DNA of 34,025 nucleotides from a virus, in IMG/VR virus record IMGVR_UViG_3300030118_003764, positions 1 through 34,025 of that record, one strand, 5' to 3'. Shown here piece after piece: positions 19,630 to 33,610 of this stretch. The notes beneath the pieces are model-generated. The model was not told the DNA's origin and ran no database searches. It saw only the letters and a list, made by a program, of their open reading frames with translations. Position 1 is the first letter of the stretch, and each line of letters starts with the position of its first letter. The position numbers and the translations under genes were made by a program.

Positions 19630-20472
19630 TTAGTCTCCGCAAAAACACGAAATTGAATCATCGTCACCAAAATCAAAGCCTTGCTGATCAGTTGCAATGA
19701 TTCTTATCTGCTCATAACCCAACTCAAGCCTGTTAAAATAGTCATTCTGCTTGTTTTCTTGCTCTATCCACCAATCAGCTAAATCTGGCCTTTGTTGCAT
19801 AATTGATAACCTTTTAGACCTGCCTTTCAAAAAACATAGGTCACAATTACCCCAGTCAGTAACTCCGTTGTTATTTGGTAGGTCCAAATCAAACGATTGT
19901 TCTTTCCAGAATTCACCTACATCCTCCTTAGATATACCATCTTCATAAAGTGGTAGCATCTTCTCTGAACCTTCAGAAACAGAGCCAATTAATTTTCTAG
20001 CCCTTCTCTCTTCATCTGCCCGTATGCCAATCATTGCTTGATAAGGAGAATTAAATCCCTGCGTCTGCAAGAACCTATTAATTGTCCGTATCTTCATTTG
20101 GCCGCTGCACATTCTGTTGAGAGGGTTTGGCAAGCAACCTACATCCTCAATTAGCTTTGCAAAAGGCTCACCATTCCTGCTAGCTGTAGCGTAATCAACC
20201 TCTTTCCAAAAATACTGATAGTTCTTTGAGTTTTCCTTTTGAATCCTACCGTCATACTCTAGCCAATGTATCTTCACCCCCCAGTTAATTGAACAATTAT
20301 TGACAAAATCTAATGTCTGAGGCATTTCCTTGCCAGTGTTTGCAAAACAAACTTTTACATAATCAGGTAGTTTGCCGTCATGGGCCTCTATGGCTCGGTA
20401 AAGCATATAAGCCGAGGTTCTCCCACCGCTAAAGCTTATGAGTGTTTGATCATCACAATAATAAGGATTCAT
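19630..20472 (-). CDS. PAPS-reductase-like / adenine nucleotide alpha-hydrolase protein
   Basis: A 280-residue protein of the PP-loop ATPase superfamily. The P-loop is SGGRTSA (about 15-21), followed by VCFANTGKEMPQTLDFV and IHWLEYDGR. Later segments (NRMCSGQMKIRTINRFL; MIGIRADEERRARK; LPLYEDGISKEDVGEFWKEQSF; NCDLCFLKG) are typical of phage PAPS-reductase-like proteins, which retain Cys pairs. True PAPS reductase would use thioredoxin; many phage members instead are linked to DNA modification or unknown chemistry. ATG 20472 overlaps the previous stop (ATGA). It sits between initiator and helicase, so a role in sulfur assimilation alone seems odd. Confidence 0.75.
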   Translation of the reverse strand: MNPYYCDDQTLISFSGGRTSAYMLYRAIEAHDGKLPDYVKVCFANTGKEMPQTLDFVNNCSINWGVKIHWLEYDGRIQKENSKNYQYFWKEVDYATASRNGEPFAKLIEDVGCLPNPLNRMCSGQMKIRTINRFLQTQGFNSPYQAMIGIRADEERRARKLIGSVSEGSEKMLPLYEDGISKEDVGEFWKEQSFDLDLPNNNGVTDWGNCDLCFLKGRSKRLSIMQQRPDLADWWIEQENKQNDYFNRLELGYEQIRIIATDQQGFDFGDDDSISCFCGD

Positions 20473-21104
20473 ATCCAAACTTCAGTAGGTGAATGTTTAG
20501 TGCCACCTTTCTTGATTGTCAAAACATCCCATTTATCCCTAAGTTTCTTTGGACTTAGAATATTAGATTTCCAAAAATCATCAGCATTTGCGTACTTAAA
20601 TAACGCTAGAATGTCATGGTGGCTGCGATTGTCTTGTTCTCGCATCAATCGTACATCATTTGCCCAGACATCAAACTTAGGTTCTTTGTGATTAGGATTG
20701 ATATTTCTAATCAAGTTGAAGATGGATTTAGCTATATTCATATCACCATCTTCATAGCGTAGATTCTTTTTAGGTTCTCTTTTAGGTTTGTGTACCGTTT
20801 TTGGTATTTCAAAAGTACCGTTTTTGGGACTTTCGTAAGTACCGTTTTTGGGACTTATGTTAAGGCAGTACATGTTTGATGAGCCATACACTTTCTTTCT
20901 ATCAAGAAGATTTTTATCATTTAAGCCTTTCATACACTTCAAAACAGTTTTTCTATCCATACCTGTCTTTTTTGCCACATAAGCAATACTTGGGTTACAC
21001 TGTCCAGTGTCCCCATTGTGGCAGTCTGCAAGGCACAGTAAGACGAGTTTTTCGCTACTGGTGGTAATCTGCTCCCATGCCCAGAAAGTTGCTCTTGCGC
21101 TCAC
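20469..21104 (-). CDS. Replication initiator, lambda O-like, with internal iterons
   Basis: A 211-residue protein. Residues 1-80 are a winged-HTH typical of O-like initiators (FWAWEQITTSSEKLVLLCLADCHN...NPSIAYVAKKTGMDRKTVLKCMKGLNDKNLL). Residues 83-115 are low-complexity (repeated SPKNGT, then KPKREPKK), and the C-terminus (DVWANDVRLMREQDNRSHHDILALFKYANADDFWKSNILSPKKLRDKWDVL) is the helical domain seen in phage replisome-organiser proteins that bind helicase or its loader. GTG 21104 overlaps the upstream TGA. The DNA of the linker holds three iteron copies, as the lambda O gene holds ori. It likely binds its own gene to start replication. Confidence 0.82.
   Translation of the reverse strand: MSARATFWAWEQITTSSEKLVLLCLADCHNGDTGQCNPSIAYVAKKTGMDRKTVLKCMKGLNDKNLLDRKKVYGSSNMYCLNISPKNGTYESPKNGTFEIPKTVHKPKREPKKNLRYEDGDMNIAKSIFNLIRNINPNHKEPKFDVWANDVRLMREQDNRSHHDILALFKYANADDFWKSNILSPKKLRDKWDVLTIKKGGTKHSPTEVWI
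20792..20851 (-). repeat. Three iterons within the initiator gene (putative origin)
   Basis: Three direct copies of CCAAAAACGGTAC (minus strand), at 20839-20851, 20815-20827 and 20792-20804, spaced 24 and 23 bases. Two copies extend to AGTCCCAAAAACGGTACTT. The third is shifted by one base relative to the reading frame, so the encoded residues differ while the DNA is kept. An A/G-rich stretch follows on the minus strand, like the unwinding region next to lambda iterons. Confidence 0.75.
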
Positions 21105-23811: not shown

Positions 23812-24009
23812 ATGGACATGTGTATAAATGTTGATCTAACTGACGAGCAAGGAAAGATTTTATCTTTTGAGTTCTCACCTAACCAAAACAGTATTTCAGT
23901 GAATATAGAATCAGGTAAAGAGATATCAACTTTTGTTTTAGATAACCCACATGTGATAAGTAGTCTAGGTGAGTTTCTAAAAGCATCCAGTGAATATGCA
24001 GGTTCTTGA
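23812..24009 (+). CDS. Hypothetical 65-residue protein
   Basis: A 65-residue protein: CINVDLTDEQGKILSFEFSPNQNSISVNIESGKEISTFVLDNPHVISSLGEFLKAS. Beta strands then a helix. The ATG at 23812 directly follows the NinG stop; the end overlaps the methyltransferase start by 14 bases. No family recognised. Confidence 0.55.
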   Translation: MDMCINVDLTDEQGKILSFEFSPNQNSISVNIESGKEISTFVLDNPHVISSLGEFLKASSEYAGS

Positions 24010-24895
24010 TCTATTTAGCGGCATAGGTGGCTTCAGCTTAGGGCTTGAAAAAGCTGGTATGGAAACTGTTGCTTTTTGCGAGATAGAAGATTACCCACGA
24101 AAAGTTTTAGAAAAGCATTGGCCTGGTATACCTATTTACAACGATGTGACCAAATTGAGCAAAAAGGTATTAGACGATGACGGAATCACAATTGACGTTA
24201 TTTGCGGAGGATTTCCCTGCCAAGACCTCAGTGTCGCAGGGAAACAAAAAGGTATCGAAGGTGAAAGATCGGGTTTATGGACAGAGTGTGCCCGTCTGCT
24301 TAGGGACATTCGACCTAAATACGCAATCTTTGAAAACGTCTCAAACTTGCTTTCTGGAGACAAAGGGAAATGGTTTCAGCGAGTTTTGTTCGACATTTCC
24401 GAAGCAGGGTACGATGCGGAATGGCACTGTATACGAGCTTCAGACATCGGAGCATGGCACCACAGAAATAGAGTCTGGATTATATGCTACCCCAAGAGCT
24501 TGTACTGCGATGCAAAGGACACTAAAACCAAGTACAGCGGCTCGGTGCGAAAATTATCCGAATTTGGAAAGTCAAATATCAAAGCAAATCTTTCCAACAC
24601 CGAATGCAAACGACGGATCAAGGGGAACCCAAGCGAATTGGCAGAAGGTGAGGGAAAGCGGTCATACGGCTCAGTACAGTCTGAACCAAGCAGTGAGAGA
24701 CCTAGAATGCCAATCCTTAAAACAATCCCAAGAAACTTATACTGGGAGACTGAACCCAACGTGGGTAGAGTGGCTAATGGGGTTCCCAATTCATCACACA
24801 GACTTAAATGCTTAGGTAATGCAGTAGTGCCACAGATACCAGAAATATTAGGTGAGGCTATTATGAATTATGAAAGGCAAAACAATGACTATTAA
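23996..24895 (+). CDS. dcm: C5-cytosine DNA methyltransferase
   Basis: A 299-residue enzyme that methylates cytosine C5 with S-adenosyl-methionine. Motif I is LDLFSGIGGFSLGLE (4-18), motif II lies near EI-EDYPRKVLEKHWPG, motif IV is GGFPCQDLSVAG (71-82, catalytic Cys75), motif VI is ENV (113-115), motif VIII is HHRNRVWI (155-162), and the end has EPNVGRVANGVP and motif X LGNAVVPQI (253-281). The target region (165-250) is short and low in recognisable structure. ATG 23996 is used; GTG at 23990 is possible. A second long frame is overprinted on residues 61-273. It may protect phage DNA from host restriction. Confidence 0.9.
   Translation: MQVLDLFSGIGGFSLGLEKAGMETVAFCEIEDYPRKVLEKHWPGIPIYNDVTKLSKKVLDDDGITIDVICGGFPCQDLSVAGKQKGIEGERSGLWTECARLLRDIRPKYAIFENVSNLLSGDKGKWFQRVLFDISEAGYDAEWHCIRASDIGAWHHRNRVWIICYPKSLYCDAKDTKTKYSGSVRKLSEFGKSNIKANLSNTECKRRIKGNPSELAEGEGKRSYGSVQSEPSSERPRMPILKTIPRNLYWETEPNVGRVANGVPNSSHRLKCLGNAVVPQIPEILGEAIMNYERQNNDY
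24177..24815 (+). CDS. Overprinted phage protein within the methyltransferase gene
   Basis: A 212-codon ATG-started frame wholly inside the methyltransferase gene, in the +1 frame. It looks like a known small phage protein type: QLTLFAEDFPAKTSV near the start, PKQGTMRNGTVYEL and PTPNANDGSRGT in the middle, and LNPTWVEWLMGFP near the end. The same DNA encodes methyltransferase motif IV (PCQ) as EDFPAKTSV in this frame and the final EPNVGRVANGVP block as LNPTWVEWLMGFP here. I recall proteins of this type as separate entries in other phages, but could not check it. No translation signal is strong (a weak AGG about nine bases upstream). Function unknown. Confidence 0.55.
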   Translation: MTESQLTLFAEDFPAKTSVSQGNKKVSKVKDRVYGQSVPVCLGTFDLNTQSLKTSQTCFLETKGNGFSEFCSTFPKQGTMRNGTVYELQTSEHGTTEIESGLYATPRACTAMQRTLKPSTAARCENYPNLESQISKQIFPTPNANDGSRGTQANWQKVRESGHTAQYSLNQAVRDLECQSLKQSQETYTGRLNPTWVEWLMGFPIHHTDLNA

Positions 24896-25064
24896 AGAGC
24901 TACTAGCCAAGCTAGAAAAGCATGAAGAAATTTGTGCTGTTAGACTTGAGAACATCGAGAAAAGGCTCGATGAGGGTTCTAAGCGGTTTATAAGACTAGA
25001 GTATTATATCTGGGGGATATATGCGGCTATATTTATTAGTGCTTTTGCTTCTAAGCTGCTCTAG
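24885..25064 (+). CDS. Small coiled-coil membrane protein
   Basis: A 59-residue protein with a charged coiled-coil (IKELLAKLEKHEEICAVRLENIEKRLDEGSKRFIRLEYY) and one C-terminal membrane helix (IWGIYAAIFISAFASKLL). The 'ekRldeg..rf.rLe..iwgiya.i' layout is frequent in phage holin-like or anchor proteins. ATG 24885 lies inside the end of the methyltransferase gene, with AAAGG upstream; ATG 24870 is the alternative. It overlaps the secreted-protein gene by 44 bases. Confidence 0.62.
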   Translation: MTIKELLAKLEKHEEICAVRLENIEKRLDEGSKRFIRLEYYIWGIYAAIFISAFASKLL

Positions 25065-28150: not shown

Positions 28151-28638
28151 TATCGTTTACCTGCTGGTGTGAAGTAGAAGCCTATTATAGCGCCCAAAGT
28201 GGTAATTGAGACAAGAGAGATGTGTCCTGTTGTGATTGACGTTGTAACTCCCTGATCGACTGGCATCTTATAGAGGCCCCACAAGATACTGATTTCTTGG
28301 GTTTGCTCTGGAGGAATGAAGGTAACAAGCTCGACTGTTGGGTAGATAGTGCAGAGGATTGAGATGGTTGCAAAGTTGAGCATCCCGATAAGAGCAATGA
28401 GCCTGCGAGTAGTACGGGTAAATATAGTCGCTTCAGGATCATCACTAGCATCTCCAAATATAGCCTTCTGAAACTCTACGTCTGCTTGCTTCATTTGCAG
28501 ATCGCGTATCAACTCTCTTTTCGCTTCTGCTTCTTTAGCCTCGTTACGGCTCTGTACTGCACCACCTATAATCTTTAGCATTGACCCCATGCCAGTAGCA
28601 CCAAGGGTCGATAACAGCATCGTTATGAGGCCAAACAT
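28150..28638 (-). CDS. Holin-like membrane protein
   Basis: A 162-residue protein. Hydrophobic segments: residues about 2-28 (GLITMLLSTLGATGMGSMLKIIGGA), about 80-100 (LIALIGMLNFATISILCTIY) and about 135-157 (SLVSITTLGAIIGFYF), with a charged coiled-coil between the first two (AKEAEAKRELIRDLQMKQADVEFQKAI). This three-segment layout resembles 3TM holins of phages and gene-transfer agents. It lies right before the endolysin gene, coupled by TAATG. A second frame with a lipobox lies inside this gene (28185-28442). Confidence 0.7.
   Translation of the reverse strand: MFGLITMLLSTLGATGMGSMLKIIGGAVQSRNEAKEAEAKRELIRDLQMKQADVEFQKAIFGDASDDPEATIFTRTTRRLIALIGMLNFATISILCTIYPTVELVTFIPPEQTQEISILWGLYKMPVDQGVTTSITTGHISLVSITTLGAIIGFYFTPAGKR
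28185..28442 (-). CDS. Candidate nested lipoprotein (o-spanin/Rz1-like)
   Basis: An 85-residue ATG frame in the other phase inside the holin-like gene. GGAG lies nine bases before ATG 28442. The N-terminus is a good lipoprotein signal: MILKRLYLPVLLAGSLLLSGC, with lipobox LSGC and Cys21, and the mature part is Ser/Gln/Pro/Leu-rich (CSTLQPSQSSALSTQQSS), like Rz1 o-spanins, which often lie nested in another lysis gene. It could also be a chance frame, because hydrophobic segments in one frame can give hydrophobic residues in another. No matching i-spanin is certain; the coiled-coil membrane protein at 26674 is a candidate. Confidence 0.42.
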   Translation of the reverse strand: MILKRLYLPVLLAGSLLLSGCSTLQPSQSSALSTQQSSLLPSFLQSKPKKSVSCGASIRCQSIRELQRQSQQDTSLLSQLPLWAL

Positions 28639-31352
28639 TACATACCAAAATCTTGTGCTAGGTTTTGTATTTCTTTTTCACGAGCAGAACTTTGTATCAC
28701 GCCTTGTAAAAGAATATCGTCAACCTGCATAGCGCGAGTCATAATTTCTACTTGGTCAGGTGTGTCCAAAGCTTCTTTTAGCAATCTTGAATACGCTTGT
28801 GGCTCAAGAATCAAGTTTTCTAGCTGTGCTGTGGTCTTTGTTAAAGGTGCTTCGATCCCCAAACTCTGAAACATCTTGGCAAATATTGCTGGTGTTTGTA
28901 TATCGTTACCTACCATTCTACCAACTCTTACACCAGCCAATCTGAAAAGAGTGTCTGCCATAGCATTTGTTGCGGCAAGCTCAGAGGTTGGCCTAGCTTT
29001 ATTTAAAAGCATTTGCTTTTCTATAGATGCAACTGTGTCATCTAAAACTTTCAAGCTTTCTGGTTTGTTTTCAAATACTATTTTTGCAGCGTTTCTAAGT
29101 TTTGTATATTTGGTTGACGCAGATGGCAAAGCAACTATATTGCTACCTTGAAATTTAAAACTATTTTTCAAAATTGTGTCAATAAAATTTCTTTGTAATC
29201 CTTCAAGGGCTAAACCTGATGGATCCTTATTCGCTTGTCTAACTAAGAGCTTTGCATCTTTAGTCGGACTTTTTGATCTTAAAATAGAATTCACACCATC
29301 TAGTGGGTCATCATATGCACTATATGTGTTAAAAGCTTGTTTAGCTCTGTTAGCTCGAAATTTAGGAACTTTTGCTACTAAATCTTCACTAGCTCTGCCT
29401 GACTGTATTGCTTGCTCAAACTCAGATCTCAACGCTCTATATTCTGGTCTAGCCAAAGTCTCTTGATGCTTTTTCATAAACTCTTTTGCGCTACGCATGT
29501 TTAAAACGCCAGTCTCTACATCTATGTTGCTTGCAAAAGCCTGCCTTATATAATCATTAGCAGCACCAAAAACGCCTTCATTATAACCAGCTATTTTGGC
29601 TAACCTATCCGCGTTGCTAAAACCTTTTTCGCCCGTTTTAAATATGTTAGATCCTACTGTTTTTTCATCAGTAATATTGAAAGGTAGCTTCTCGAAAATA
29701 GCCTTGACATCTCTAGTGATTTTTGATGCTTGTCGATAGCTATCGCCTTTACCTGGTGCTTTTAATATTAAATCTAGTGCATCGCTTTGTAATTGCTGAC
29801 CAAATGCAATAATTGTTGGATTAGATTCAGACTTACCTTGCAAAGTCCTCAACTCAGATAAAATGTTCGATCTGAACTTAATTAGCTCATCTATGGATAC
29901 TCTGCCTTTTTCGGCTGTATTGCGTAAAGTATCTATATAGCCTTGAAAAGATTCACCAACAGCCTTTTTTTGTTGATCTGTGGATAAGATTGGCACATCT
30001 CTGTCAGTAACACGTTTGGTAAAATCCAGTACATTTTTACGGCTAACAAAAGGATTTTTCAATCCCTCCCAAGCATCTTGTATTATGTTAGAGCCTGCTT
30101 CATCAGCAAGTTTTATTGCTTGAGCTAAATTTTCACTCGCTTCAGATGCTGGTATTACACCATTTTCTACTCTTTGAAGGTCAGTTCGATACTTAGCATA
30201 TGCGTCATCTAACAAACCATTAGCTACAGAATTTATAGCTTCTTCTCTACCTTGTATGTAATTTTTAAAATATAGCTGTGAAGCCTCAGGAGACAAAACA
30301 TCTATATTTTCTCTCAACTGGCGCATAGAAGATTCGTTAATATCGAGTAACTTTCTGTCAAACTCAACGCTTCTATTTTTAAGATAATTAGTTAGAGATG
30401 CTATACCTTCATCTCCAGTTAGAGTTGCTAAGCTACCAGTACGGCCTTGCTCAATAGCCTGCCTTAAATTAGCAACAGCTGTAGTTTTATCAGATGCGTG
30501 TTTTTGTATTAGCTCTAATGCAGCTTCAGGAGAGGTTTTATCTTCACCAAATGGACTTATAGCCCTTAATTGTTTTCCCTTCTGTAAAGCATAAGTTGTG
30601 GCTTTTGCTCCAGCAAGTGCTGCAAATGGTGTAGCTATTCCTGCAAATAACTCTGCAAGAGGATCACCTTCACTAAAATAACTAGCACCACCAGCACCTA
30701 GAGCAGATGTGGCGCCCATAACACCTGTTACAAAATTTGCTTTTGGGCTGGTCATCTGTTGTGTTAATGTTCCAGGCGCTCTTTGTGAGCCAACAGGAAG
30801 CGGGCTAACTTGAGTTCTAGTTGGTGTTATTGCTTGTTGACCTTTTCCGAAAGGAATATTCCTAATTCTTGTAAGATCCTCTCCTGCGGCTAGTTTAGCC
30901 ATAGTAGCCTGCGGTGTTAGAAATCCACTACCGAACTCCAAACCAATACCGACTGGTCTTAATTTTTTTTTCAAAGCCTCATTGTCAGACGCTCTTTCTG
31001 GATCAAATAATAGACCTGTGTCTATACCTAAGAAATTTTGTGATGGTAATGCTGCTCTAGTTTTTGGAAATCCAGTTGCGTATTCAGAGACATCCAAAAG
31101 CATATTTCCGATAACAAAAGGAAAGTCGACTATGTTGCCAAAAGTACCTTTAGCTATGTATGACGCTAAAATGTTGCCTGTATCAACAGCTTTGTTTATG
31201 GTGCTAAATCTTTCTATGTCAGAAGATAAAGAAGAAACAGCAGGTTCACTATCTAAAAACTCGTCAGATATATCTGGCCCTGTAGTGACATTTTGATCGC
31301 TCGTATCTAAAAACTCTGACGATATGTCACCTAGAGATTGATTTATAGCCAT
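28638..31352 (-). CDS. Large internal virion / ejection protein
   Basis: A 904-residue, mostly helical protein without enzyme motifs. It has two short repeats at the N-terminus (ISSEFLDTSDQ and ISDEFLDSE), a Gly/Ala-rich hydrophobic stretch near 230-255 (FVTGVMGATSALGAGGASYF and LFAGIATPFAALAGAKA), and long helical segments after residue 300. Size and composition match the ejection proteins that podoviruses carry inside the capsid and inject with DNA. It precedes the holin gene (TAATG) and follows another large virion protein. The hydrophobic part may help form a membrane channel. Confidence 0.65.
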   Translation of the reverse strand: MAINQSLGDISSEFLDTSDQNVTTGPDISDEFLDSEPAVSSLSSDIERFSTINKAVDTGNILASYIAKGTFGNIVDFPFVIGNMLLDVSEYATGFPKTRAALPSQNFLGIDTGLLFDPERASDNEALKKKLRPVGIGLEFGSGFLTPQATMAKLAAGEDLTRIRNIPFGKGQQAITPTRTQVSPLPVGSQRAPGTLTQQMTSPKANFVTGVMGATSALGAGGASYFSEGDPLAELFAGIATPFAALAGAKATTYALQKGKQLRAISPFGEDKTSPEAALELIQKHASDKTTAVANLRQAIEQGRTGSLATLTGDEGIASLTNYLKNRSVEFDRKLLDINESSMRQLRENIDVLSPEASQLYFKNYIQGREEAINSVANGLLDDAYAKYRTDLQRVENGVIPASEASENLAQAIKLADEAGSNIIQDAWEGLKNPFVSRKNVLDFTKRVTDRDVPILSTDQQKKAVGESFQGYIDTLRNTAEKGRVSIDELIKFRSNILSELRTLQGKSESNPTIIAFGQQLQSDALDLILKAPGKGDSYRQASKITRDVKAIFEKLPFNITDEKTVGSNIFKTGEKGFSNADRLAKIAGYNEGVFGAANDYIRQAFASNIDVETGVLNMRSAKEFMKKHQETLARPEYRALRSEFEQAIQSGRASEDLVAKVPKFRANRAKQAFNTYSAYDDPLDGVNSILRSKSPTKDAKLLVRQANKDPSGLALEGLQRNFIDTILKNSFKFQGSNIVALPSASTKYTKLRNAAKIVFENKPESLKVLDDTVASIEKQMLLNKARPTSELAATNAMADTLFRLAGVRVGRMVGNDIQTPAIFAKMFQSLGIEAPLTKTTAQLENLILEPQAYSRLLKEALDTPDQVEIMTRAMQVDDILLQGVIQSSAREKEIQNLAQDFGM

Positions 31353-31361
31353 TCAAAACTC

Positions 31362-32963
31362 CTAAAAATCTCTGACATTAAATTTTTCAACAAAAGACTG
31401 GTAATCTGTACCCATACTAGCGGCAAGATTACTTACAAACTCAGGTGAAACAACACGATTACGTAATACTAAAAATCCTTGCCCTCTTAATGGCAAAGAT
31501 TCACCTTCTGTTGGATATCCGCGAATGATATTGTTCAATCTTTCTTTTCTTTGATTTGCATCGTAAATGTTGCTATTTAAGGGAATTTGCGTCAATCCTT
31601 GCCTATAGTTAGCATCTAAGTATGCAATTTTATTAATAGCAGCTTTATCGGGGCCAAATTTAGGATCGTCAAGTTTAACATTCAAGTTTTTCCTATATAT
31701 TAAATCGGCTTCTTCAGGAAGTAGTCTACCCTCGTAATCAAGCAAAAGATTTTCAGGTGTAAGCTCAAAGCTAAATCCCTTGTACAATTTTAACTCTTGT
31801 AAATCAGTATCTGTCACAGGAGCATAATTTCTGATAATAGGTAAAACTTGTTTAGTAGTGAGCTTTTCTCTTTTATCTAAATAAGAAGCAACTGCTTGAC
31901 CACGTTCGCCAGGCTTTTGTTTTTCAAAAAACCTAGCAGCATCGCCTAGACCTAAAGTATACTCCCTACCACCTATGCTTTCTTCAAAGGCTATGCGGTC
32001 ATAAATTATAGAAGTTGCTAATTGACCTGTTTGAGCTTGGTTTGTAAGCTCAGTTAAGTTGTCTAATTGACTTTCTATAGAAACCTTACCTAAAGGCTCA
32101 CCACTGTCGGCTTGAGGTGTACTTGTTCTTTTACCTTGTATGATTCTAGTAAGACCACCTGGTGTTGTTTCTACAGTAAAACCGCTTGGCGCTAATTTTG
32201 TGTTAATTTGATTAATCCTAGTTTGCAAGCTTTGTATATTTCTGTCTTTAATGTCCTGCGATAAGTTTGGATTACCTTCTACTTGTCTTATTTCGGCTTC
32301 CAAATCTAATACCTGATCTTGTAACTGCAAAAATTCTGGACCTTCTTGTGCTTCTCGCAATCTTAAATTGTAATCTCTGTCTTTTTCAAATCTATCTCTT
32401 TCTTCTTTTCTTCGTTCTCTTTGCTGAGTTTCTATGAATTTCGCATAGTCAAATTGTTCTGTTAAGGCTTGACGCTCTAATCCTAATTGTTGTCCTTGGA
32501 ACTGTAAGGCTTGTAGTTCTCTCGCTCTATCTTGCGCTCTTGTTTTCTGTAATGCACCGACACCTTGTCCCAGAGCAGTCCCTAGACGCTGTGAGATGTC
32601 TCCTGTAGACGATGCTAATCCAAGACCAAATGCTATAAATGCGTTTCTTTGAGCCTCTGTAGGGTCTTTGAGAGCGTCTAAGAAGCCTTTTTGTCCTGCA
32701 TCTGGATTGACGAAAGCTGATCTAGTTCTTTGCTGTGATAAATCTTGATACTGTTTTAGCAAGTCTTGTTGTGCTTGGATGTTAGCGTCCTTCTTGTCAA
32801 ATATGCTTTGAAACGGATTGACTGGCGGTTGTCTTTGCTTTATTTCGTTCAAAAGAGTTTGTTGTTCTGGTGTAAATCCAGACATAAAATCTGCTTCTGG
32901 TGTTAAACCAAGCAAATTGCCATATGCTGTTCCAAAATTTAATAGATTATCTGGTGTTGCCAT
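31362..32963 (-). CDS. Internal virion-like protein, coiled-coil
   Basis: A 533-residue protein. ATG 32963 overlaps the upstream stop (TGATG); a TTG three bases earlier is less likely. Around residues 110-145 it has a Gly/Ala segment (FIAFGLGLASSTGDISQRLGTALGQGVGAL), then a long charged coiled-coil (RARELQALQFQGQQLGLERQALTEQFDYAKFIETQQRERRKEERDRFEKDR; LQDQVLDLEAEIRQVEG). The C-terminal part is mixed alpha/beta. The pattern (Gln-rich, coiled, Ala/Gly helix) fits podovirus internal core proteins. Confidence 0.62.
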   Translation of the reverse strand: MATPDNLLNFGTAYGNLLGLTPEADFMSGFTPEQQTLLNEIKQRQPPVNPFQSIFDKKDANIQAQQDLLKQYQDLSQQRTRSAFVNPDAGQKGFLDALKDPTEAQRNAFIAFGLGLASSTGDISQRLGTALGQGVGALQKTRAQDRARELQALQFQGQQLGLERQALTEQFDYAKFIETQQRERRKEERDRFEKDRDYNLRLREAQEGPEFLQLQDQVLDLEAEIRQVEGNPNLSQDIKDRNIQSLQTRINQINTKLAPSGFTVETTPGGLTRIIQGKRTSTPQADSGEPLGKVSIESQLDNLTELTNQAQTGQLATSIIYDRIAFEESIGGREYTLGLGDAARFFEKQKPGERGQAVASYLDKREKLTTKQVLPIIRNYAPVTDTDLQELKLYKGFSFELTPENLLLDYEGRLLPEEADLIYRKNLNVKLDDPKFGPDKAAINKIAYLDANYRQGLTQIPLNSNIYDANQRKERLNNIIRGYPTEGESLPLRGQGFLVLRNRVVSPEFVSNLAASMGTDYQSFVEKFNVRDF

Positions 32964-33610
32964 CAAACTAATCCTCTTGCCATCATCTGTTCTTCTAGTA
33001 GCATCATCTCTTCTGGTGATCTACCCATCATGTCATCGAATAAAGGTTTAGGTACAAACATAGGCATTTCACCTATTGACTCATCAACTGTAGGTGTTGG
33101 TTGTACGCTACCAGGAGAAAATGGTGGAGCCGCGCCCCCTGTTACTGGTGGTGGACTTAATGCTTTTCCTACTGCAGATGCGAAATATGCAGTTTCTAAA
33201 GGCTTATCTTTTGCTGTAGCTAAGAGTTTTGCGCCACCTCTTTGTAAAAAATTGCTTGATGCGCCAGAAACAGGGTCAGCTAAAAGAATTGATTCAGGAA
33301 CAGTAGAAAATTTTGGTACGAAAGGAAGTGGACTACCAAAAGCTCCCGTGGTTTTTATTGTTGCTGCATCTGCCGCTGCTAATGCTGTTTTACCTCCAAC
33401 GGTAGTAACTGGAGCTGCCGCACTAGGAGCAGCTGTGGCGGTTGTAACAACTTTACCAAGCCCTAGCGCACCCCCAAGAGTTGACGCTCCACCACCTAAT
33501 AGTGCGCCTTTTAAAGCACCCTCAAGTATATTTTCATCTTTATTTCTGGCTACATTAGCACCCAAAAGAGCACCGCCAACTAATAAAGGGACTAAAAAAG
33601 GTAAAGACAT
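32963..33610 (-). CDS. Ala/Gly-rich membrane-associated virion-like protein
   Basis: A 215-residue protein. A hydrophobic N-terminal segment (LPFLVPLLVGGALLGANVA) is followed by Gly/Ala-rich stretches (ALKGALLGGGASTLGGALGLGKVV), then a Pro-rich middle and an acidic Met-rich end (EEMMLLEEQMMARGLV). Such small Ala/Gly-rich proteins often precede large ejection proteins and may help cross the membrane. It is coupled to its downstream neighbour by TGATG, and one base separates it from the upstream gene. A long frame on the opposite strand is a composition artefact. Confidence 0.6.
   Translation of the reverse strand: MSLPFLVPLLVGGALLGANVARNKDENILEGALKGALLGGGASTLGGALGLGKVVTTATAAPSAAAPVTTVGGKTALAAADAATIKTTGAFGSPLPFVPKFSTVPESILLADPVSGASSNFLQRGGAKLLATAKDKPLETAYFASAVGKALSPPPVTGGAAPPFSPGSVQPTPTVDESIGEMPMFVPKPLFDDMMGRSPEEMMLLEEQMMARGLV

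Follow-up and report, generated by a model that had tools for sequence, protein, structure and literature searches.

Two open frames at a C5-methyltransferase locus

The window analyzed here is the whole 34,025-base IMG/VR virus record IMGVR_UViG_3300030118_003764 (positions 1 to 34,025). Its genes are of the tailed-phage type and include those for portal, terminase, major head and scaffolding proteins, Erf, SSB and NinG. The subject of this analysis is a gene for the large subunit of a C5-methyltransferase, here called alpha, and a second open reading frame (ORF), here called beta, which lies fully within alpha in the +1 frame. Alpha (23996-24895, + strand, frame 0) encodes 299 amino acids; its start is possibly GTG at 23990 or ATG at 23996, and it ends at 24895. 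Beta (24177-24815, + strand) starts with ATG and encodes 212 amino acids, which are interpreted below as a nested small subunit. This 212-codon frame inside the methyltransferase gene had been pointed out in an earlier note made from the sequence alone, and its extent and register were confirmed. In 20,000 synonymous-codon shuffles of the methyltransferase gene, the longest +1 run was 77 codons on average and reached at least 213 codons in 0.02%. The length of the +2 frame was unremarkable in these shuffles (P = 0.37).

The assignment of alpha is based on Pfam, PHROG, AlphaFold and Foldseek. Alpha matches the Pfam profile PF00145 (DNA_methylase) with an E-value of 3.9e-54, the match covering only positions 1-227 of the 324 positions of the profile, and PHROG 363 with an E-value of 3.2e-80. 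Motifs I, IV (PCQ), VI (ENV), VIII and X are present, as the earlier note had stated, and motifs I-VIII constitute the catalytic and S-adenosylmethionine (AdoMet)-binding domain. That list needs one correction: motif IX is missing from alpha and sits in the nested +1 frame. Invariant residues of alpha are P74, C75 and Q76, E113 and N114, R157/R159, and G274 and N275. The phmmer comparison with solved bacterial methyltransferases showed that the similarity ends at residue 171-178. The best Foldseek matches of the alpha model are M.HhaI (root mean square deviation 1.5) and M.HaeIII, over 169 columns and in the large domain only. The AlphaFold confidence (predicted local distance difference test, pLDDT) is ~95 at residues 1-170 and ~90 at residues 280-299, which form the motif X helix, and is below 50 at residues 178-238 and 246-273. 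Residues 178-273, the stretch opposite the recognition domain and motif IX of beta, are mostly predicted to be disordered. The recognition region and motif IX are in the same polypeptide in the usual monomer, which is not the case in alpha.

Beta is supported by its open frame, by its homologues and by PHROG 1008 ("DNA methyltransferase"), which it matches with an E-value of 5.6e-27 and which is matched by all 63 aligned members. The PHROGs that hold the nested subunit are 1008, 26627, 27243 and 31772, and they are named "DNA methyltransferase" or are of unknown function. PHROG 1008 mixes nested and split forms of beta, and its name is silent on a subunit without catalytic motifs.

Conservation and selection in the two frames

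Viral loci were fetched with the beta protein (80 loci) and with the alpha protein (77 more), 157 altogether, with some contigs present in both sets. These and the bacterial-genome loci were taken as top matches to the query and do not form a random sample. All 157 viral loci have an open +1 frame, in an identical register and free of stops, with a beta homologue detectable with tblastn; the open run has a median of 231 codons in +1 vs 48 in the other frame. The same +1 register was observed at 80 of 80 bacterial-genome loci from many phyla. Alpha is uninterrupted in 76 of these, has one stop in three, and is split after motif VIII in one (L209).

Independently, a scan for the DNA pattern of the motif IX region, without requiring alpha, yielded 120 viral contigs, six of which had it too near the contig end. 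The nested +1 frame, with motif X in frame 0, was observed in 107 of the 114 informative contigs. Of the remaining seven, L275, L285 and L319 are apparently true splits, and four apparently carry indel damage. Beta without an upstream alpha was never seen on a contig long enough to judge. One locus, L341, was considered as an in-frame fusion and rejected: the recognition region remains in the +1 frame, with stops in the beta frame on either side of it, as in an indel-damaged copy.

The codon analysis used 112 distinct alpha proteins and 46 disjoint pairs of relatives. The alpha-only codons show the usual coding pattern: change is 0.35 at position 3 vs 0.07 at position 1, fourfold-site change upstream of beta is 0.381, and the ratio of nonsynonymous to synonymous rates (dN/dS) of alpha is 0.11; the dual-frame dN/dS values below come from simple counting, which biases their absolute size, and the argument is made from contrasts between regions. 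The translation-start region of beta (24158-24193, + strand) contains a Shine-Dalgarno-like AAAAAGG (24161-24167), a spacer of 9 nucleotides and the ATG at 24177. It is marked by a dip at synonymous sites: in codons 55-66, the fourfold-site change of alpha falls to 0.091 (0.052-0.134) and position-3 change to 0.13-0.15. A start codon, ATG in 103 cases, is found between 25 codons before and 15 codons after the PCQ cysteine in 112 of 112 relatives.

Residues 1-36 of beta (24177-24284, + strand) are an unconstrained leader, judged by dN/dS, fourfold rate and pLDDT. The fourfold rate recovers to 0.316 over residues 1-33, and the beta-frame dN/dS of residues 1-36 is 2.36, similar to control regions outside beta (1.72 and 1.55). 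The leader is probably disordered, with pLDDT below 50 at residues 15-36, and is a shadow cast in +1 by alpha motif IV, whose GGFPCQDLSVAG reads EDFPAKTSVSQ in that frame. LTLFAEDFPAKTSV recurs because it is the +1 reading of this PCQ motif of the methyltransferase. The earlier note had taken LTLFAEDFPAKTSV for a feature of a family-like protein, which does not hold for an unselected shadow.

Both frames are constrained in the following dual-coded core (24285-24449, + strand), where alpha motifs V-VIII overlap beta residues 37-91. The fourfold rate of alpha is 0.111 in codons 97-168, and dN/dS is 0.20-0.36 for alpha and 0.53-0.68 for beta. The beta consensus of the core is YGQSxPVxLAxFDPDT..KTSQ..EFSGTxPRSGMMRNGTVYQLP.

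The variable region, putatively for target recognition, is read in the beta frame (24450-24749, + strand; beta residues ~92-191) and contains PTPxAxD repeats. It was assigned from dN/dS by frame, from the pLDDT of alpha and from the match of the beta profile to single-ORF methyltransferases. In alpha codons 169-247, dN/dS is 1.19 (1.09-1.38) for alpha, as in neutral evolution, and 0.33 (0.25-0.40) for beta, and the alpha frame is a passenger from ~24500. In codons 248-274, the values are 0.69 and 0.31, respectively.

Motif IX, LNPTWVEWLMGFP, follows in the beta frame (24750-24788, + strand; beta residues 192-204). The assignment is supported by invariance, by an alpha fourfold rate of 0.024, by alpha pLDDT below 50 and by spacing. 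P194 and W196-P204 of beta are invariant across 63 homologues, and the end of beta, L-N-P-x-W-V-E-W-L-M-G-F-P, has spacing identical to that of the canonical motif IX LTPRExxRLxGFP, as seen in CHPC1282. The alpha sequence EPNVGRVANGVP recurs because it is the other-frame reading of NPTWVEWLMGFP in beta, and is thus a by-product of motif IX. Motif X (LGNAVVPQ; 24812-24835, + strand) is in the alpha frame. Past the end of beta, the alpha-only constraint is back, with a dN/dS of 0.09 and a fourfold rate of 0.41 (0.408).

These dN/dS values and fourfold rates by region indicate that alpha is carried as a passenger through the variable region and that beta is real from about residue 37. Selection acts in both frames, and dual coding of the gene is strongly supported. 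The dual coding suggested in the earlier note is thus borne out by the existence of homologues, by the open frame in relatives and by a fourfold rate of 0.091-0.111 at the start and core and 0.024 at motif IX vs 0.38-0.41 outside the overlap.

Single-chain, split and nested methyltransferases

The alpha profile is matched by two single ORFs, Mycobacterium phage prophiT46-2 gp23 (best domain E-value 4e-39) and Gordonia phage MelBins gp5 (2.5e-37). After motif VIII, prophiT46-2 gp23 matches positions 84-191 of the beta profile (whole-protein E-value 1.6e-6) and MelBins gp5 matches positions 98-191 (1.6e-5), and motif X follows in both. These single-chain phage C5-methyltransferases have the same domain as alpha, and their recognition region and motif IX match the beta profile; they differ from alpha/beta in that all motifs are in one reading frame. 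Beta is homologous to this part of the single-chain enzymes. Such natural enzymes are the strongest evidence that beta likely represents a recognition region with motif IX.

In Mycobacterium phage Drake94 (L250:1438-2431), two "DNA methylase" genes, gp76 and gp75, overlap by 182 bases in +1. The product of gp76 has motifs I-VIII. The gene gp75 overlaps motifs VI-VIII and carries the beta core, the recognition region, motif IX and motif X; its product is 41-49% identical to the C-terminal part of the single-chain enzymes. The same split layout is observed in L209 and L275. Single-chain, overlapping-split and fully nested forms appear to survive as stages for comparison, with Drake94 as a putative intermediate.

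Drake94 gp75 is matched by 572 phage records, mostly from phages of Mycobacterium, Gordonia and Arthrobacter. In Paenibacillus phage Sitara (L252:1628-2332), the depositors label the nested frame "hypothetical protein, g59 internal gene". In other records of P. larvae phages, both frames are called DNA-cytosine methyltransferase, or only one frame is annotated.

The earlier note had also proposed that the whole second family arose by overprinting of methyltransferase genes. This stands for beta residues ~37-91, a new segment under selection over the coding sequence for alpha motifs V-VIII. It does not stand for residues ~92-204, which look like ancestral methyltransferase sequence now in +1, with alpha as a passenger, nor for residues 1-36, the unconstrained PCQ shadow that includes LTLFAEDFPAKTSV.

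Enzymes made of two polypeptides are known. The methyltransferase M.EcoHK31I consists of a large and a small polypeptide of ~309 and ~176 amino acids, the small one being read in a different frame inside the gene for the large one, and M.EaeI is a relative of this enzyme. M.EcoHK31I (YGGCCR) was reportedly described by Lee, Kam and Shaw in 1995 (cited in PMC3404938) as a naturally two-polypeptide C5-methyltransferase. Compared by description only, the present locus shares with it the division of motifs, the large subunit having I-VIII and X and the small polypeptide alone having IX, and also the position of the small polypeptide in another frame inside the large-subunit gene. M.AquI (CYCGRG) is likewise one methyltransferase naturally divided between two polypeptides. 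Its small subunit carries both motifs IX and X, whereas at the present locus alpha has motif X and beta is nested. The layout of M.AquI is closer to that of Drake94 gp76/gp75, L209 and L275, with motifs IX and X in the second ORF, but these overlap in +1. According to PMC3404938, the large polypeptide of M.EcoHK31I has motifs I-VIII and X and its small polypeptide has motif IX; M.AquI, also made of separate polypeptides, is cut differently.

The principle of a two-chain C5-methyltransferase is therefore already known, and the present locus is a further example. Four features are apparently new: the location of the recognition domain in a nested frame, the wide spread of the family, the overprinted core, and the series of single-chain, split and nested forms. 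The literature search found no paper on the string WVEWLMGFP, on a survey of the overlap or on these features, and publications outside the searched library are possible. The search of plasmids gave only three distant matches, with no M.EcoHK31I entry among them.

A probable two-polypeptide enzyme and the alternatives

It is very likely that the two overlapping frames encode one C5-cytosine methyltransferase, with alpha as the catalytic subunit and beta as the DNA-recognition subunit. For the expression and assembly of the two polypeptides, their activity, the docking role and the biological purpose, we infer the following. Alpha, in frame 0, would form the large domain that binds AdoMet and catalyzes with PCQ, having motifs I-VIII and, as a helix that closes it, motif X. 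From an internal start near 24177, preceded by the Shine-Dalgarno-like AAAAAGG, beta would be translated in the +1 frame. Beta would be laid out as a loose leader, a dual-coded segment of ~55 residues, a target-recognition region and motif IX. The dual-coded segment probably docks on alpha, and the two polypeptides would join into one active enzyme in which beta is the small domain that reads the sequence. Orphan phage methyltransferases usually serve to shield phage DNA from host restriction. Here as well, the phage DNA would be methylated at a specific site by its own enzyme, and host restriction enzymes probably would not cut it.

Some points weigh against a recognition subunit encoded by beta. 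Beta has no match in Pfam, NCBIfam or solved structures, all three of which were searched. The AlphaFold model of beta alone is poor (pLDDT 58.8) and has no Foldseek match. The absolute dN/dS values are biased, as stated above. In M.EcoHK31I, the recognition domain is predicted in the large subunit (PMC3404938). Unlike in that prediction, the recognition region here is selected in the beta frame (dN/dS 1.19 for alpha and 0.33 for beta), and the corresponding stretch of the alpha model is disordered.

Programmed frameshifting could instead produce one chain, by a +1 shift after motif VIII and a -1 shift before motif X, with the upstream part of the beta frame being only a shadow. Alpha to motif VIII, beta through motif IX and motif X from alpha would reproduce the canonical order of prophiT46-2 gp23 and MelBins gp5, and motif X does lie within ~10 codons after motif IX. 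However, two shifts are required, and constraint on the beta frame sets in near alpha codon 97, ~70 codons ahead of the end of motif VIII. The beta start has its separate synonymous-site dip and start codons in all 112 relatives, the beta ORF of Drake94 has its own start just past a stop, and M.EcoHK31I and M.AquI are made as separate polypeptides (PMC3404938). We consider frameshifting quite improbable, because the constraint on beta begins far ahead of any place where a shift would be useful and because the start region of beta is itself conserved. A slightly lower probability still is given to beta as an independent protein, an anti-restriction or regulatory partner overprinted on the methyltransferase. 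Beta would be a separately translated conserved ORF in that case too, and anti-restriction genes do occur in phages. However, the motif IX and recognition region missing from alpha are found in beta, the C-terminal part of beta shares homology with single-chain methyltransferases, and on contigs long enough to judge, beta is not seen apart from an upstream alpha. No similarity of beta to known anti-restriction families was found in Pfam and NCBIfam, and its PHROG matches are DNA methyltransferase or of unknown function. The anti-restriction partner suggested in the earlier note is thus unsupported, and a methyltransferase subunit fits far better. The probability of a chance ORF, kept open in +1 by base composition and conservation of the methyltransferase protein, is negligible. 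Such genes do at times have a long +1 frame, as the shuffle mean indicates, but P is 0.0002 within the window alone, and the frame is open in all relatives with clear dual-frame constraint. This reading was rejected by the shuffles and the constraint tests.

Beyond this locus, it seems probable, though with less confidence than the two-subunit enzyme itself, that alpha and beta represent a large, mostly unrecognized class in phages and bacteria, in which the whole recognition domain has moved to a nested +1 frame and the docking segment is overprinted on catalytic motifs. If so, new specificities could evolve in beta alongside an unchanged catalytic subunit. It is rare for same-strand dual coding of ~200 codons to be conserved over such a range of phages and bacteria, and here it would have an unusually clear reason, each product supplying the half of the enzyme that the other lacks. 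Gene callers tend to retain a single frame, neither Pfam nor NCBIfam has a model for beta, and the label of PHROG 1008 is only "DNA methyltransferase". Therefore, orphan methyltransferases in viromes are likely to be labelled as incomplete or assigned the wrong specificity. The natural series of single-chain, split and nested forms would be useful for studying the origin of overlapping genes.

The scan of neighbouring genes, which took in only part of the small ORFs, found no adjacent restriction enzyme. Two large ORFs on the - strand, 28638-31352 (904 amino acids) and 31362-32966 (534 amino acids), have no PHROG match. A small ORF (24870-25064, + strand) overlaps the 3' end of alpha by 26 bases and has a hydrophobic stretch at its end; it possibly encodes a membrane protein. 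A gene of the phosphoadenosine phosphosulfate reductase family (19630-20478, - strand), possibly connected with sulfur or nucleotide chemistry, lies between replicative helicase-like and replication O-like genes.
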